A DNA stretch of 28,331 nucleotides from a virus: positions 1 through 28,331 of the IMG/VR virus record IMGVR_UViG_3300049846_000182. One strand, written 5' to 3'. Positions 2,431 through 23,434 of this stretch are shown here, in pieces. The notes below the pieces were generated by a model. The model was not told the origin of the DNA and ran no database searches. It was given only the letters and a program-made list of their open reading frames with translations. The position numbers and the translations under genes were made by a program. Position 1 is the first letter of the stretch, and every line of letters starts with the position of its first letter.

Positions 2431-2598
2431 ATGAAACCACCAAAACTGGAAAAGATGGTTACATCAAATGGAATAGTGTGGGAGATTGCATACGCTGGGA
2501 TGACGCGGCAGTTTAAACGTGATTATGAAGCGACTGCGTTTTACTATCACTTATGTGAGTGCTATGTGCTTCAGTTAGCGCAGCGTAAGTATCAGTAG
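2431..2598 (+). CDS. Small unknown protein (55 aa)
   Basis: An ATG at 2431 opens a 55-codon frame ending TAG at 2596-2598, overlapping the 3' end of the convergent endolysin gene by 7 nt. The peptide reads like a compact folded domain: VTSNGIVWEIAYAG (a beta hairpin) followed by FKRDYEATAFYYHL (a helix). Similar short proteins occur in cyanophages, as far as I recall. No function is known. It fits the gap between two - strand genes almost exactly, which supports it as real, but it has no clear ribosome-binding site. Confidence 0.5.
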   Translation: MKPPKLEKMVTSNGIVWEIAYAGMTRQFKRDYEATAFYYHLCECYVLQLAQRKYQ

Positions 2599-3650
2599 TT
2601 CCAACGTACACGCGGGCGTCCTTTACGCATACCAAGATGCACAAATCCTTTTGGTGCTCCATAGCCTACGCTATACGGCCAATGCTTATCGCAATACTCT
2701 TGCACCTTATAGATGTCTGCTCCTTCGATATAAAAGTCAACAGCTCCTACATCAGGCGCATCGTATAAATGCTCTGAGCTGCTAGCACCACCAACCATGC
2801 GATTAATGGCAGGTGGACGATAGCCACTGGTAATGATCAAAGGCTTACCGCCAAAGTGTGCTCGTACCTTCTCTAAAAACTCAGCCAGCTCTGTAGCAGT
2901 CTTGATTTGATAGTCAGCAGCAAAACGTCGTTCTTCCTTATAAAGTGCAAACTCACCGATAGCAATATGTGGTGTCAGCTTGGCATTAAACGGTGATGTA
3001 GGGCGCAGCTTGACTGGCTCTTGCTGCTTAGGCAATGCACCGCCAGTAAATAATGCAACTTCATCCTTCCGTCGATTAACAAGCCCTTCTAACACCTTGC
3101 CACCACCTTTGTTCCAGCGTGGCAGCTCCTCGATCACAACTTTATTGGCATTTTCACCAGCCAGAAGGCGTTTGCGTAGCGTGCTTTCTTCCAGCGCACC
3201 TAAACCTACGTTGTAGGCAAAACTAACGATGGCTGCCACCTGCTCACCGCGCCATTTCTTCGCCAGCGGCAGCAATTCAAAAACGCCAGGTGCAAACAGG
3301 TTCTCAACCTCATGCAGCAGCATTTGATCTGCTTCCTGCTGCGTGATCTTATCGCCCATGCGTACGGCACGGTTCGCCAGCCTAGTAGCGCCATAGCCAA
3401 TAGTTGGAACACCAGCAGGGCAAAGGTACGCTTCTAGCCTGCAGCCCTCCCATTTTTTGATAATCTTCAATGCTGGTACTAACCACGCAGCAGGCAACGG
3501 TTCCTTGACGACAGGATCAGCGCGATACAGCTCAGCAAACTGATCTAGCGTCTCCTTATCAATACGCTCTTGCAGCCAGTCCCATGCTGCTAGCTGATGC
3601 GGTAGCTGCTTGAAATGCTTGGCAGCATCACGCAGTTGAATCGTGCTCAT
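2592..3650 (-). CDS. Modular endolysin: GH24 lysozyme plus M15-type peptidase
   Basis: A 352-aa enzyme that breaks host peptidoglycan at the end of infection. Residues 1-60 form a helical N-terminal region (LPHQLAAWDWLQ) that may help wall binding. Residues 60-205 are a GH24 (T4/P21-type) muramidase: E68, C77 and T83 fit the E-x8-(D/C)-x5-T catalytic pattern around WEGCRLEAYLCPAGVPTIGYG. Residues about 225-345 match a peptidase M15_3 (D-Ala-D-Ala carboxypeptidase-like) domain with probable zinc ligands H294 (SSEH), D305 (GAVDF) and H338 (FVHLG). There is no signal peptide, so export would depend on a holin. The genes just upstream, with which it overlaps by 4 nt, are small membrane-type proteins, consistent with a lysis cassette. 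Confidence 0.88.
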   Translation of the reverse strand: MSTIQLRDAAKHFKQLPHQLAAWDWLQERIDKETLDQFAELYRADPVVKEPLPAAWLVPALKIIKKWEGCRLEAYLCPAGVPTIGYGATRLANRAVRMGDKITQQEADQMLLHEVENLFAPGVFELLPLAKKWRGEQVAAIVSFAYNVGLGALEESTLRKRLLAGENANKVVIEELPRWNKGGGKVLEGLVNRRKDEVALFTGGALPKQQEPVKLRPTSPFNAKLTPHIAIGEFALYKEERRFAADYQIKTATELAEFLEKVRAHFGGKPLIITSGYRPPAINRMVGGASSSEHLYDAPDVGAVDFYIEGADIYKVQEYCDKHWPYSVGYGAPKGFVHLGMRKGRPRVRWNY

Positions 3651-21266: not shown

Positions 21267-21435
21267 AACGCCAAGCCTCGACACCTGTAAGTAGTGTAGA
21301 GCCGTCAGCTGTAGCCCAGCCCTTGTCGGTATAAATCGCTGGCACCCACGCCTCACCCTGCAATGCTTCGACAGGATCAGAGGAAATGAAAAAGATCCCT
21401 TCATTACGGAAGTGTCTAAGTCCCGGCAGCTCCAT
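21145..21435 (-). CDS. Unknown protein overlapping the MuF end
   Basis: A 96-aa frame starting MELPGLRHFRNEGIFFISSD. The first 60 residues look like a real domain (PVEALQGEAWVPAIYTDKGW, TLLTGVEAWRYAEETNQ). The remaining 36 are polar and basic and are read across the DUF6496-like gene in another frame, so they may be a by-product of that overlap. The start lies 20 nt inside the MuF gene's 3' end. The function is not recognised. Confidence 0.55.
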   Translation of the reverse strand: MELPGLRHFRNEGIFFISSDPVEALQGEAWVPAIYTDKGWATADGSTLLTGVEAWRYAEETNQGGQEDQQSNEGVQSRSVKKRQTGTRKRTNSQKP

Positions 21436-23434
21436 ACCGTCTCCTGAGTTGCTCCAAGGTTAGTTCGCTGCCATCATCGCGCACAAGTTTTGCCATCGCA
21501 TCCTTAGGACCGTATTTCTTAGCAAGCAGGTCAAAATAACGCACGCGTTCCTTGCCTAGTACCTCAGCTTTGGTGGCAGCATCCTGCTTGGCTAGCCACT
21601 GACCGTAAGACGTATCAGCAGGTACTGGACCATCCATGCTGGCACGCTTACCAGGAGGCGGCGGATCAAAACCAAGTGCTTTGTAATCAATCACCGGTAC
21701 TGTGGTGCTTCGGCAATTATGAGTTAAGATGGCGTCGGCGCAGTAAGTGCCAGTCTCCGTCTCGAAGTTGTACACATGCCCACTAAATGGTTCCCAGCCG
21801 ACCCAGCAGACATCGGCTTGATCGTATCCCTCTATGACCAAGGAATCGGTGTTCGTGGCATCGCGGATCGCTTCGACGTCTCTCCACGTCCCATAGAGCG
21901 CATCATTCAGGAATCCGGGCGCAGACTCCGAACTAGGAGCGAGCAGCAATTTGCTCGTATGGCTCGAACCAGTGCCATTGAACGCAAAGCATTGGCTGCT
22001 GCTGCTAACAAAGCTAAACGTGGGCTGCCTAACAGCAATGAGACTTTGCAGCGAATGGCTGCTGCTCGTTGCCGCAAGGTCGGACCGCTTGAAGCTGAAG
22101 TCCAGCAATGTCTTGAGCAGGCTGGGATTGACTGCGAGGAGCAATTCCCGATTGGCAAGTACAACTGCGACTTGCTTTGCACTTTGGGGAATCGACGCGT
22201 CGCCGTGGAAGTCTGGGGCGGTGGTTGGCACTTCTACGGAGAACACCGCAGTCGATTCCCTGAACGCACGGAATATATCCTCGGCAGTGGTTACAGCATT
22301 GTCTTTCTGGTTATCTGCAACGGATTTAGATGGAATGACATTGCTCGCAAAAACCTTATCACCAACCTTTACGAGATTGGCAGGCTTCCAGCCGTCCGCC
22401 GTCAATACAGGATGATTTGGGGTGACTCTGAGCATGTGACTATTGGTGGTCTTGATGACATAGAGCTTGCCCTCGTAAAACCGACGGTAAACCGCCGCGA
22501 TCCTGCCACTGGTCGTTACTTGAGCATCCCCAGGTAAGCAGTTGAAATGCTGCGGCGGCATTGGACCTTTGCCGTATTCAAATTCCCGTCCATCTAGTGC
22601 AGCACAGATCGAGGAGGTTCGAGCATCGAGTGTTGCGACGTAGCGATAGCGCGGCGTGATGTCTTGATTGGCTTCGTAGACCTGTTGGCTGGCAGCGTTT
22701 GCTACCTGATTGACACTGGTGCGAACTAACGCTATCACCTGCTGATCAGTCGCTTTGGTTAGATCACCGCCAGCCTTGGTGAGCTGTTTGATGCTGCCGG
22801 TTTGCCCTAGTTCAAGGTTGCCTATTAAGCGTTTGGCAATCGCTGGTGTCGGTTCACCAGTTAGCAAGCCGTTACGAACAACCTGCGAGAACCGCTCAGC
22901 TTGATCAGCAGCTATTCCGCGAAATGCCTTTTGCACGACAGCACCGTTGGGCAGAGTGATGGTTGCACCTTGTGCAGCAGTCAGGCTGTAAGTCTGCGGT
23001 GCGCCTTGGACGGCAGCGAATAGATCATCACTTAGCGTCACGACATTGATCTGGGTTGGATCTGTTGTGACTACCGCCTGAGCGAACTGCGGGCTGATCT
23101 CAACGGTATTAACTGCACCGCGAGCGCCAGCAGGCAACACACGTCGTAACTGGTCCTCGACAAACTCAGACTGCAGTAAAGCTAAACCCTGCAGTTCAGT
23201 TGCCATCGTGTTGACACTGGCATTAGACCAAGTGCCAAGCGATTCCTTGAGCTGAGCAAGGATGGCACGCAGTCTGGCAGCCTTGACCGGTGCTGCTAGC
23301 TCATCAATGGTGCGAAGCTGGTTGACACTATCAACGATGATGTCGTTGTAGGCACTAACAATCTGCCTGGCAACGCTATTGCTGTAGCGGTTTAGGTCAA
23401 TCGCGTTACGGTATAAGGCTGATGGAGTAGCCAT
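21416..23434 (-). CDS. MuF-like minor head protein, split by an intein
   Basis: A 672-aa precursor. Residues 1-298 and 574-672 form a MuF/SPP1 gp7-like minor capsid protein, which is linked to the portal and needed for head maturation or DNA ejection. Conserved parts are visible: LVRTSVNQVANAASQQVYEA, TLDARTSSICAALDG, then PMPPQHFN^CRSTTVP, the family's PPxHxxCR motif. The intein (299-573) interrupts exactly this motif, and joining Asn298 to Cys574 restores it, giving a 397-aa protein. The gene follows the portal cluster, in the usual order. Its ATG directly follows the stop of the 83-aa gene upstream (TAATG). Confidence 0.9.
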   Translation of the reverse strand: MATPSALYRNAIDLNRYSNSVARQIVSAYNDIIVDSVNQLRTIDELAAPVKAARLRAILAQLKESLGTWSNASVNTMATELQGLALLQSEFVEDQLRRVLPAGARGAVNTVEISPQFAQAVVTTDPTQINVVTLSDDLFAAVQGAPQTYSLTAAQGATITLPNGAVVQKAFRGIAADQAERFSQVVRNGLLTGEPTPAIAKRLIGNLELGQTGSIKQLTKAGGDLTKATDQQVIALVRTSVNQVANAASQQVYEANQDITPRYRYVATLDARTSSICAALDGREFEYGKGPMPPQHFNCLPGDAQVTTSGRIAAVYRRFYEGKLYVIKTTNSHMLRVTPNHPVLTADGWKPANLVKVGDKVFASNVIPSKSVADNQKDNAVTTAEDIFRAFRESTAVFSVEVPTTAPDFHGDASIPQSAKQVAVVLANRELLLAVNPSLLKTLLDFSFKRSDLAATSSSHSLQSLIAVRQPTFSFVSSSSQCFAFNGTGSSHTSKLLLAPSSESAPGFLNDALYGTWRDVEAIRDATNTDSLVIEGYDQADVCWVGWEPFSGHVYNFETETGTYCADAILTHNCRSTTVPVIDYKALGFDPPPPGKRASMDGPVPADTSYGQWLAKQDAATKAEVLGKERVRYFDLLAKKYGPKDAMAKLVRDDGSELTLEQLRRRYGAAGT
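21716..22540 (-). other. Intein in MuF (Hint-fold splicing element)
   Basis: A 275-residue intein, codons 299-573 of the MuF precursor. Block A is CLPGDAQVTTSGR (Cys1 is Cys299). Block B contains LRVTPNHPVLTADGW with the TxxH-type TPNH. Block F is GHVYNFETETGTYCADAI, and block G is LTHN followed by Cys574. All residues needed for standard Cys-type splicing are present. No LAGLIDADG or HNH motif appears in the sense frame. The linker between the Hint halves (about 366-540) is Ser/Ala/Leu-rich and low in recognisable structure. Its antisense strand carries the endonuclease gene at 21776-22537. Splicing is expected from the sequence but not demonstrated. Confidence 0.9.
21776..22537 (+). CDS. 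Vsr/EDxHD-like homing endonuclease, antisense within the intein
   Basis: A 253-aa protein on the strand opposite the intein. Residues 12-48 form a helix-turn-helix (ADIGLIVSLYDQGIGVRGIA, DRFDVSPRPIERII). Residues 49-100 are a basic, Ala-rich linker. Residues 104-185 match a very-short-patch-repair-like PD-(D/E)xK nuclease: Glu in PLEAEV (E106/E108), D132 in YNCDLL, then VAVEVWGGGWHFYGEH with H152, which parallels the Vsr VAVFVDGCFWH block and the EDxHD homing endonucleases of phage fractured genes. The C-terminus (RRDPATGRYL) may bind DNA. The ATG is inside intein block F and the TAA (22535-22537) lies one codon from Cys1. No clear promoter or ribosome-binding site is seen. Cleavage of intein-free MuF alleles is inferred. 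Confidence 0.83.
   Translation: MPTKWFPADPADIGLIVSLYDQGIGVRGIADRFDVSPRPIERIIQESGRRLRTRSEQQFARMARTSAIERKALAAAANKAKRGLPNSNETLQRMAAARCRKVGPLEAEVQQCLEQAGIDCEEQFPIGKYNCDLLCTLGNRRVAVEVWGGGWHFYGEHRSRFPERTEYILGSGYSIVFLVICNGFRWNDIARKNLITNLYEIGRLPAVRRQYRMIWGDSEHVTIGGLDDIELALVKPTVNRRDPATGRYLSIPR

Follow-up and report, generated by a model that had tools for sequence, protein, structure and literature searches.

An intein in a cyanophage capsid gene overlapped on the opposite strand by a gene for its inferred homing endonuclease

The window analyzed here comprises the whole 28,331-nucleotide stretch of the IMG/VR viral record IMGVR_UViG_3300049846_000182, in which a MuF-like head morphogenesis/minor capsid gene occupies positions 21416–23434 on the − strand, with its stop codon at 21416–21418. 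The assignment of this 672-aa ORF was supported by a match to phrog_241 (head morphogenesis, 1.7e-84) and by a Pfam Phage_Mu_F match above its cut-off. The gene is interrupted by an intein of 275 aa (21716–22540, −), extending from Cys1 (Cys299 of the ORF) to His274-Asn275 (His572-Asn573), which separates an N-extein of 298 aa ending in PPQHFN (22541–23434, −) from a C-extein (21419–21715, −) starting with Cys+1 (Cys574; CRSTT). Fully nested in this intein, the + strand carries a codon-aligned antisense ORF of 253 codons (21776–22537, ATG to TAA), located 60 nt inside one end of the intein and 3 nt inside the other. A previous sequence-only reading had described this arrangement as an intein whose homing endonuclease is encoded antisense, with both functions packed into about 825 bp; its coordinates were right and its observation was confirmed.

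On the sense strand, the expected splicing blocks were found at both ends of the insert and were strongly conserved in the sense-intein set (A2). Block A (22502–22540, −; CLPGDAQVTTSGR) bears the Cys1 nucleophile, and its residues C1, L2, P3, and G4 were invariant, as were T40, P41, N42, and H43 of the TPNH motif of block B (22412–22423, −). Block F (21755–21787, −; FSGHVYNFETE) was likewise invariant, and its His255 codon is the complement of the ATG of the antisense gene, a start position shared by 21 loci. Block G (21716–21739, −; ADAILTHN) contains the penultimate His and the terminal Asn. Altogether, the residues that define a class 1 intein of the Hint superfamily are present, and the TIGR01445 profile of the intein N-terminal region matched with 28.2 bits (cut-off 24.5), whereas PF14890 (2.6e-5, 24.5–26.7 bits) remained below its cut-off of 35.8 bits for the window. 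The stop codon of the antisense ORF (TAA, 22535–22537, +) is the complement of the intein Leu2 codon TTA, and a stop (TAA or TAG) opposite Leu2 was observed in most full loci, with no stop-generating codon occurring between. Between the terminal blocks, the sense linker (21836–22156, −; residues ~129–235) produced no Pfam hit and was predicted to be disordered, with residues 131–239 showing pLDDT <50 (linker ~20). Hence, no endonuclease domain was found in the sense polypeptide, and the single continuous ORF does not present the separate N and C halves of a split intein. The sense frame is nevertheless not merely a free linker, since residues ~84–135 (the PDFHGD region) are conserved in their own right. 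The FHGD motif (22199–22210, −; residues 111–114, opposite nuclease residues 142–145) is conserved beyond what the antisense frame imposes, and it persists in L333, a mini-intein locus lacking the nuclease.

The product of the + strand ORF, a member of a conserved family (A1), was modeled by AlphaFold with confidence (pLDDT 86.8) as a helix-turn-helix followed by a Vsr/DUF559-like nuclease. The predicted helix-turn-helix (21806–21919, +; residues ~11–48) is resolvase-like, with matches to PF02796 (6e-4) and, using the A1 profile, to the gamma-delta resolvase in PDB (0.008). It is followed by an RxRSEQQFARM motif (21929–21961, +; residues 52–62), invariant in A1 except for residue 53. The nuclease core (22091–22231, +) comprises E106, Y129-N-C-D132, V144-E145, and G149-x-W151-H152, within a predicted helix, three strands, helix, strand scaffold with pLDDT mostly 90–97. 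E106 was conserved in 66/67 copies, D132 in 67/67, E145 in 67/67, and H152 in 61/67, being replaced in the remaining 6. The sequence-only reading had named a Vsr/EDxHD-like core with D132 and H152; we correct this signature to E106, D132, E145, and W151-H152 (DUF559/MTES_1575/Vsr-like) rather than a strict EDxHD reading. The lack of any Vsr-like profile hit had been set out in advance as grounds for rejecting the proposal, and such a hit was obtained: PF18741 matched 14 of 16 family members, with 6.1e-5 for the window. However, this match (23.5 versus 38.2 bits) and that of PF04480 (12.9 versus 20.6 bits) fell below the gathering scores of Pfam, so that "Vsr-like" is a superfamily-level placement and not family membership. 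Structure comparison using Foldseek retrieved the catalytic domain of I-Bth0305I (PDB 3r3p; TM 0.60 by target length, prob 0.99), the Vsr-like homing endonuclease of a phage group I intron, as well as DUF559 folds. The PDB fold matches had E-values no better than 3e-3, the identity with the intron-encoded I-Bth0305I was ~15%, and its profile hit reached only E 0.25, whereas a single-sequence search of PDB gave only noise.

Homologs of the antisense ORF were found in 28 IMG/VR loci at 37–87% identity and in 86 phage records at ~24–37%, and the broader set comprised a further 79 viral loci, five GTDB genome loci, and one plasmid, in phages of at least five bacterial phyla. All 171 distinct nuclease ORFs recovered face an open, codon-aligned sense frame, none facing a sense stop, and both frames were open in every locus where both could be read. 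No free-standing homolog was present among these 171 ORFs, although one weaker free-standing zinc-finger DUF559-like ORF (E ~1e-3) was detected near an intein in locus L265. Loss of the antisense frame in homologs with intact intein blocks was another outcome named beforehand as fatal to the proposal; instead, among 80 loci found with the sense intein alone, 79 carry the nuclease ORF at full length and the 80th is cut by a contig edge. Among 80 found with the Hint parts alone, 74 do so by the script's count, or 75 with L313, whose flag came from a second nuclease ORF, and three more are cut by contig edges. Very distant phage relatives (E about 1e-32 or better) also carry the ORF. Out of 399 Pseudomonas genomes, only two carry the intein, one of them being the query's own genome.

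Codon-aligned antisense frames are the phase in which open shadow frames are easiest to obtain in GC-rich genes, which raised the possibility that the + ORF is an accident of codon use in the sense intein. To examine this, we counted the sense codons that generate antisense stops (TTA, CTA, and TCA), and found none among 1,432 Leu and 1,554 Ser codons of the overlap (0/2,986), whereas exteins use them at 19.8% and 14.6%, respectively. If the sense residues used extein codons, the overlap of the window alone would carry ~11 antisense stops (P(0)<1/2000), although in GC-rich relatives (loci L128 and L206) the expected number is only ~2. The ratio of substitutions at sense position 3 to position 1 was 3.9 upstream of the nuclease ATG, in block G, 0.4–0.9 in the body, 1.3–1.4 opposite blocks A–B, and 3.1 in the adjacent N-extein. 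This pattern thus flips at the boundaries of the nuclease ORF, so that the + strand is under protein-level selection opposite the linker, where sense position 1 evolves faster than position 3, and both strands are under such selection opposite the Hint blocks. The nuclease residues also exceeded the conservation imposed by the sense frame in every block (e.g., D132, 1.00 versus 0.27), and nuclease identity exceeded sense-intein identity in 348 of 351 pairs. Formal overlapping-gene dN/dS and gene trees of nuclease, intein, and extein were not computed. Together with the confident fold, these tests refute the shadow ORF. They also indicate that the sense linker is mostly the shadow of the antisense gene. 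The converse alternative, that the sense intein is itself a by-product tolerated without splicing, as proposed for ShiLan-type inserts, which lack splicing domains (PMC11855218), finds some support in this disordered linker. We consider it very unlikely, since C1, TPNH, FSGHVYN, and HN|C are invariant or nearly so and conserved beyond what the nuclease frame imposes, sense position 3 is the fastest site in block G, and the mini-intein L333 retains the splicing domain (PF14890, 43.9 bits, above cut-off) after losing the nuclease. A group I or II intron as the splicing element, which could be entertained given the antisense endonuclease genes reported in group I introns (PMC9548176), was practically excluded: no Rfam match at E<=1 was found in 21300–23000, and the insert is in frame, open, and carries Hint motifs.

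Next, we examined intein-less alleles. Of 80 MuF alleles without the intein, 79 exhibited a 0-nt insert, with extein identity of up to 97%, aligning to residue 298 and continuing directly into the C-extein, whereas the 80th was cut by its contig end. The cultured Synechococcus phages KBS-S-2A and S-H1 are also empty at this site, and vB_EcoS_fKuEco01 is an empty relative of the carrier phage Snoke. The identity of the nuclease tracked that of the intein (rho 0.86) and less that of the extein (0.41), and locus L001 exhibits 53% extein but 87% nuclease identity. On the C-side, the first ~45 nt of the C-extein differ from the closest empty alleles, and its first 15 nt showed 0.40 mismatch to the six closest empties against 0.04 among them, although this patch is short and could reflect ordinary recombination. 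Additionally, decayed states were represented by loci L132 and L349 and by the mini-intein L333. The extein/intein discordance, the short C-side patch, the decayed-nuclease copies, and the mini-intein fit a homing cycle. One contig harbors two inteins in one gene, each with its own antisense nuclease; a close-relative search for the second-site intein returned only its own contig.

Taken together, the interpretation offered by the sequence-only reading was supported: homologs keep the antisense frame, a Vsr-family profile reaches the + ORF, and the sense linker, for which a conserved-domain hit had been specified as contrary evidence, gave none, so that no refuting condition came true as a pattern. 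The arrangement is, moreover, widespread and not a one-off. Our preferred explanation, to which we assign a probability of roughly 0.88, is that of a mobile intein in a phage MuF capsid gene whose homing endonuclease is a separate gene on the opposite strand. In this view, the capsid mRNA would give a precursor from which the Hint domain splices out, rendering the insertion harmless, while the antisense gene would give the nuclease. In a cell co-infected with an intein-less phage, this nuclease would cut the MuF gene at or near PPQHFN|CRST, and break repair would copy the whole 825-bp element, both functions together, into the recipient. The analysis itself demonstrates the two reading frames, protein-level selection on both, precise empty alleles, horizontal spread relative to the exteins, and the decay states, whereas expression, cleavage, the target position, splicing, and hence homing are inferred, no biochemistry having been carried out. 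It is also possible, although unlikely, that the antisense gene is real and the element mobile but the nuclease is a regulator or an exclusion/competition nuclease sheltering in the intein, considering its resolvase-like helix-turn-helix, the absence of cleavage data, and the many roles served by DUF559/Vsr folds. Against this, nuclease and intein travel together at one conserved site, intein-less alleles are precise, extein and element histories differ, decay to a mini-intein occurs, and the closest solved homing relative is the intron endonuclease I-Bth0305I.

Known systems resemble this element in part. Canonical large inteins (e.g., PI-MtuI and PI-PfuI; LAGLIDADG or HNH) share a Hint domain in a conserved host gene, site-specific occupancy, and a homing cycle with empty, full, decayed, and mini states, but their nuclease lies in the same polypeptide and strand. 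Split inteins with a free-standing Vsr-like/EDxHD endonuclease gene lying between the halves (Dassa et al. 2009) likewise pair an intein with a Vsr-superfamily nuclease gene, whereas here the intein is one continuous polypeptide that the nuclease gene overlaps antisense. Antisense homing endonuclease genes in nuclear group I introns, such as I-DsqI in Didymium (PMC9548176), also lie opposite the host gene inside a self-splicing mobile element, but this element is an RNA intron in rDNA, so the endonuclease gene does not overlap another protein-coding frame. The ShiLan domain and the Pacc40 insert (PMC11855218) are in-frame phage insertions whose homing endonuclease is hidden in another reading frame, but the enzyme is an HNH on the same strand (third frame, for ShiLan), and no intein or intron splicing domain was found there. 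The annotated inteins of Jerseyvirus/Kagunavirus capsid genes (Snoke, PMC6776784; UPWr_S, PMC8425127) belong to the same family and site and carry the antisense gene too, although we found no mention of the nuclease in those reports. Literature searches returned no antisense endonuclease inside an intein, and we know of no such case; the known inteins were not scanned systematically for antisense nuclease ORFs.

A broader reading, which we regard as likely, is that these loci represent a whole, old class of selfish element in which the two strands of one DNA segment encode splicing and mobility as exactly codon-aligned antisense genes, stable across phages of at least five bacterial phyla and able to sit at more than one site in the host gene. 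Under this reading, the overlap uncouples the nuclease from capsid-gene expression and makes it harder to lose one function without damaging the other. Intein annotation assumes that the endonuclease, if any, is an in-frame domain, so that antisense endonucleases go unseen; the 86 deposited phage records carrying this one are usually annotated only as "hypothetical" or "head morphogenesis". To our knowledge, this is one of the longest, oldest, and best-controlled antisense overlapping gene pairs, with two folded protein functions on complementary codons, empty alleles, decay states, and a same-gene control, on which models of overlapping-gene evolution can be tested, and it may also give compact intein/endonuclease tools. 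It raises the questions of whether the overlap slows the loss of the nuclease and how a gene antisense to a late structural operon is expressed. Regarding the latter, and counting against our explanation, no sigma-70 promoter was found for the + gene in the window and its Shine-Dalgarno is weak, and in locus L030 the consensus scan found only one promoter, on the other strand. The Salmonella/E. coli/Pantoea relatives, however, have TATAAT (TGC-TATAAT in four of five) ~45 nt upstream, the motif at which the antisense promoter is predicted in Guernseyvirinae, and GAGG or TAGG before the ATG.

The window is a fragment of a cyanosiphovirus, as its major capsid protein is 92% identical to that of Synechococcus phage KBS-S-2A and 83% to that of S-H1, and its structural genes run on the - strand. 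The MuF-like head morphogenesis gene (21416-23434) is interrupted by an in-frame insert of 275 residues (21716-22540), which carries Cys1, TPNH (residues 40-43), FSGHVYNFETE, His274-Asn275 and Cys+1, and which scores above the cut-off of the TIGR01445 profile. On the + strand, positions 21776-22537 comprise an ATG-TAA ORF of 253 codons. The two frames are codon-aligned, each nuclease codon being the reverse complement of one intein codon, with the ATG being the complement of the His255 codon in block F and the TAA the complement of the Leu2 codon in block A.

Comparison of the + strand protein with Pfam revealed a MTES_1575-type restriction endonuclease core (6.1e-5) and a resolvase-type HTH (6e-4), and although both matches were below the gathering scores, 14 of 16 family members matched PF18741. 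An AlphaFold2 model built from 16 homologues exhibited a mean pLDDT of 86.8, with values of 90-97 over most of the nuclease core, and both Foldseek and profile searches placed this core with DUF559 (3hrl) and with the catalytic domain of the Vsr-like homing endonuclease I-Bth0305I (3r3p). The candidate catalytic residues E106, D132, E145 and H152 were conserved in 66, 67, 67 and 61 of 67 sequences, respectively. The sense protein, in turn, was modelled as two confident Hint pieces joined by residues 131-239 of very low confidence, and it resembles mini-inteins such as RadA.

To verify whether this arrangement exceeds what chance would produce, we performed four tests. First, homologues were ascertained by the nuclease, which retrieved 28 + 79 viral loci, 86 phage records, five genome loci and one Chloroflexota plasmid. 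Every one of these that was examined lies opposite an open, codon-aligned frame, whereas the other two antisense phases hold 2-38 stops, and over all the loci collected 171 distinct nuclease ORFs face no sense stop. Second, homologues were ascertained by the intein. Out of 80 loci found with the sense intein alone, 79 carry the nuclease over its length and one is a contig edge, the other loci scored as partial by the automated count being proteins with two or three HTH copies that HMMER had split into several hits. With a query made only of the Hint blocks, 74 of 80 loci were full by the automated count, or 75 when including L313, a MuF locus flagged only because it has a second nuclease ORF, while three were contig edges, one was decayed (locus L349) and one was a mini-intein (locus L333). 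Very distant sense relatives in Gordonia, Mycobacterium, Pseudomonas, Edwardsiella, Aggregatibacter and Vibrio phages also carry the nuclease (E about 1e-32 or better), and antisense stops, which are common in their exteins, are absent across the intein.

The third test addressed codon use. TTA, CTA and TCA, whose complements are stops, account for 0 of 1,432 Leu and 0 of 1,554 Ser codons in the overlap, in comparison with 19.8% and 14.6% in exteins. With extein codon use the window would have ~11 antisense stops, and the mean over 64 loci is 7.7. The fourth test examined the substitution pattern in 27 close relatives, in which the ratio of sense position 3 to position 1 was 3.1 in the last 20 N-extein codons, 1.3-1.4 opposite blocks A-B, 0.7 over residues 56-165, 0.4 over residues 166-235, 0.9 at the first nuclease codons, and 3.9 in the 20 codons upstream of the nuclease ATG. 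Hence, opposite the linker selection acts on the + strand protein, opposite the Hint blocks it acts on both proteins, and the change falls at the predicted start codon.

Next, we redrew synonymous codons in one frame and examined how conserved the other would be. Nuclease residues exceeded the expectation in every block (for D132, observed 1.00 and expected 0.27). These shuffles do not model relatedness, so the z-scores are descriptive. Sense residues exceeded the expectation strongly in blocks A, B and F and around FHGD, and hardly at all for residues ~150-200. The FHGD motif looks like a true sense motif, since it remains in the L333 mini-intein, whose antisense frame is full of stops. This mini-intein (L333, 2501-3034; 178 aa) sits at an N/CEC site, retains FHGDG in the sense frame, and matches Intein_splicing above the cut-off. 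At the position shared by nuclease E145 and sense F111, the codon is GAA in 67 of 67 sequences, fixed by both proteins.

With respect to mobility, 80 MuF relatives with 80-97% N-extein identity have no intein, of which 79 join the N- and C-extein with 0 nt between them and the 80th ends at the site. The cultured phages KBS-S-2A and S-H1 are also empty. The carriers most similar to the window in the element can have distant exteins, as in locus L001, which exhibits 53% identity in the extein, 77% in the intein and 87% in the nuclease, and nuclease identity follows intein identity (rho 0.86) and, to a lesser degree, the extein (0.41). Just after the insertion site, the window differs from its six closest empty relatives at 40% of the first 15 nt, whereas they differ among themselves at 4%. 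This excess fades within ~45 nt and none is seen on the N side, which is what co-conversion would leave, although the patch is short. Two loci with intact inteins but a decayed antisense nuclease, bearing an in-frame stop and a deletion of the HTH part (L132, 2914-4323, and L349, 2501 onward), together with the L333 mini-intein, complete the expected cycle. In contig 3300040801_000142 (loci L177/L313, with L383 on the same contig), one MuF gene has two inteins at different sites (ARTE/..TGN/TIRAHA and N/CRC; L313 1223-2314 and 2501 onward), each with its own antisense nuclease, that of the first having about three HTH copies. Longer inteins (about 315-380 aa), as in loci L024, L128, L168, L174, L179, L291, L292, L331 and others, tend to carry antisense nucleases with two or three tandem HTH domains, so that the sense linker grows with the nuclease. 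A free-standing zinc-finger ORF with a DUF559-like core (weak nuclease-profile hit, ~1e-3) was also found near an intein of this family on the reverse strand of locus L265 (3993-5151), and is a possible relative of the ancestor.

The element probably works as follows. Splicing would remove the insert from the capsid protein and the antisense gene would supply the nuclease, which would cut an intein-less MuF gene in a co-infected cell, whereupon repair would copy the element. The first two steps follow from conserved motifs, while cleavage and copying are drawn from the pattern of occurrence. Expression is the weakest link in this scheme, as no sigma-70 consensus was found in the window and only a weak GAAG precedes the ATG. 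In five Guernseyvirinae relatives (L030, L031, L039, L041 and L298), a TATAAT (TGC-TATAAT in four of them) lies ~45 nt upstream of the nuclease ATG and GAGG or TAGG lies 8 nt before it, both written inside the codons of the intein C-terminus, but these are close relatives and the observation is only suggestive. The window also contains an RNA polymerase sigma factor-like gene on the + strand (693-1613; phrog_351, 2.7e-63), whose bearing on + strand transcription was not tested.

Antisense homing endonuclease genes are documented in nuclear group I introns (PMC9548176; PMC3679873), and out-of-frame, same-strand HNH genes without any splicing element were described in phage methylases in 2025 (PMC11855218). 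Papers on Snoke and the UPWr_S phages mention the intein of this family, although we did not encounter the antisense gene in the sections consulted. No report of an antisense endonuclease in an intein was found in the open-access literature searched, which excludes most subscription journals and all bioRxiv preprints, and we are aware of none. We therefore regard the element as a mobile intein with a homing endonuclease, a pairing already known, but with a genome architecture unlike the two known ones.

The carriers of the family comprise cyanophage-like contigs (the window), phages of Gammaproteobacteria (Salmonella, Escherichia, Klebsiella, Vibrio, Pseudomonas, Edwardsiella, Aggregatibacter and others), Alphaproteobacteria (Rubellimicrobium, locus L131), Actinomycetota (Gordonia, Mycobacterium), a Bacteroidota MAG (Chitinophaga, locus L130) and a Chloroflexota plasmid (locus L032). 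In the GenBank record LC507823 (L031), fragments inside the intein region at 2554-2802 (-) and 2730-3131 (+), one of them a piece of the + strand, are annotated as hypothetical proteins, and some other records call the host gene NAD+--asparagine ADP-ribosyltransferase.
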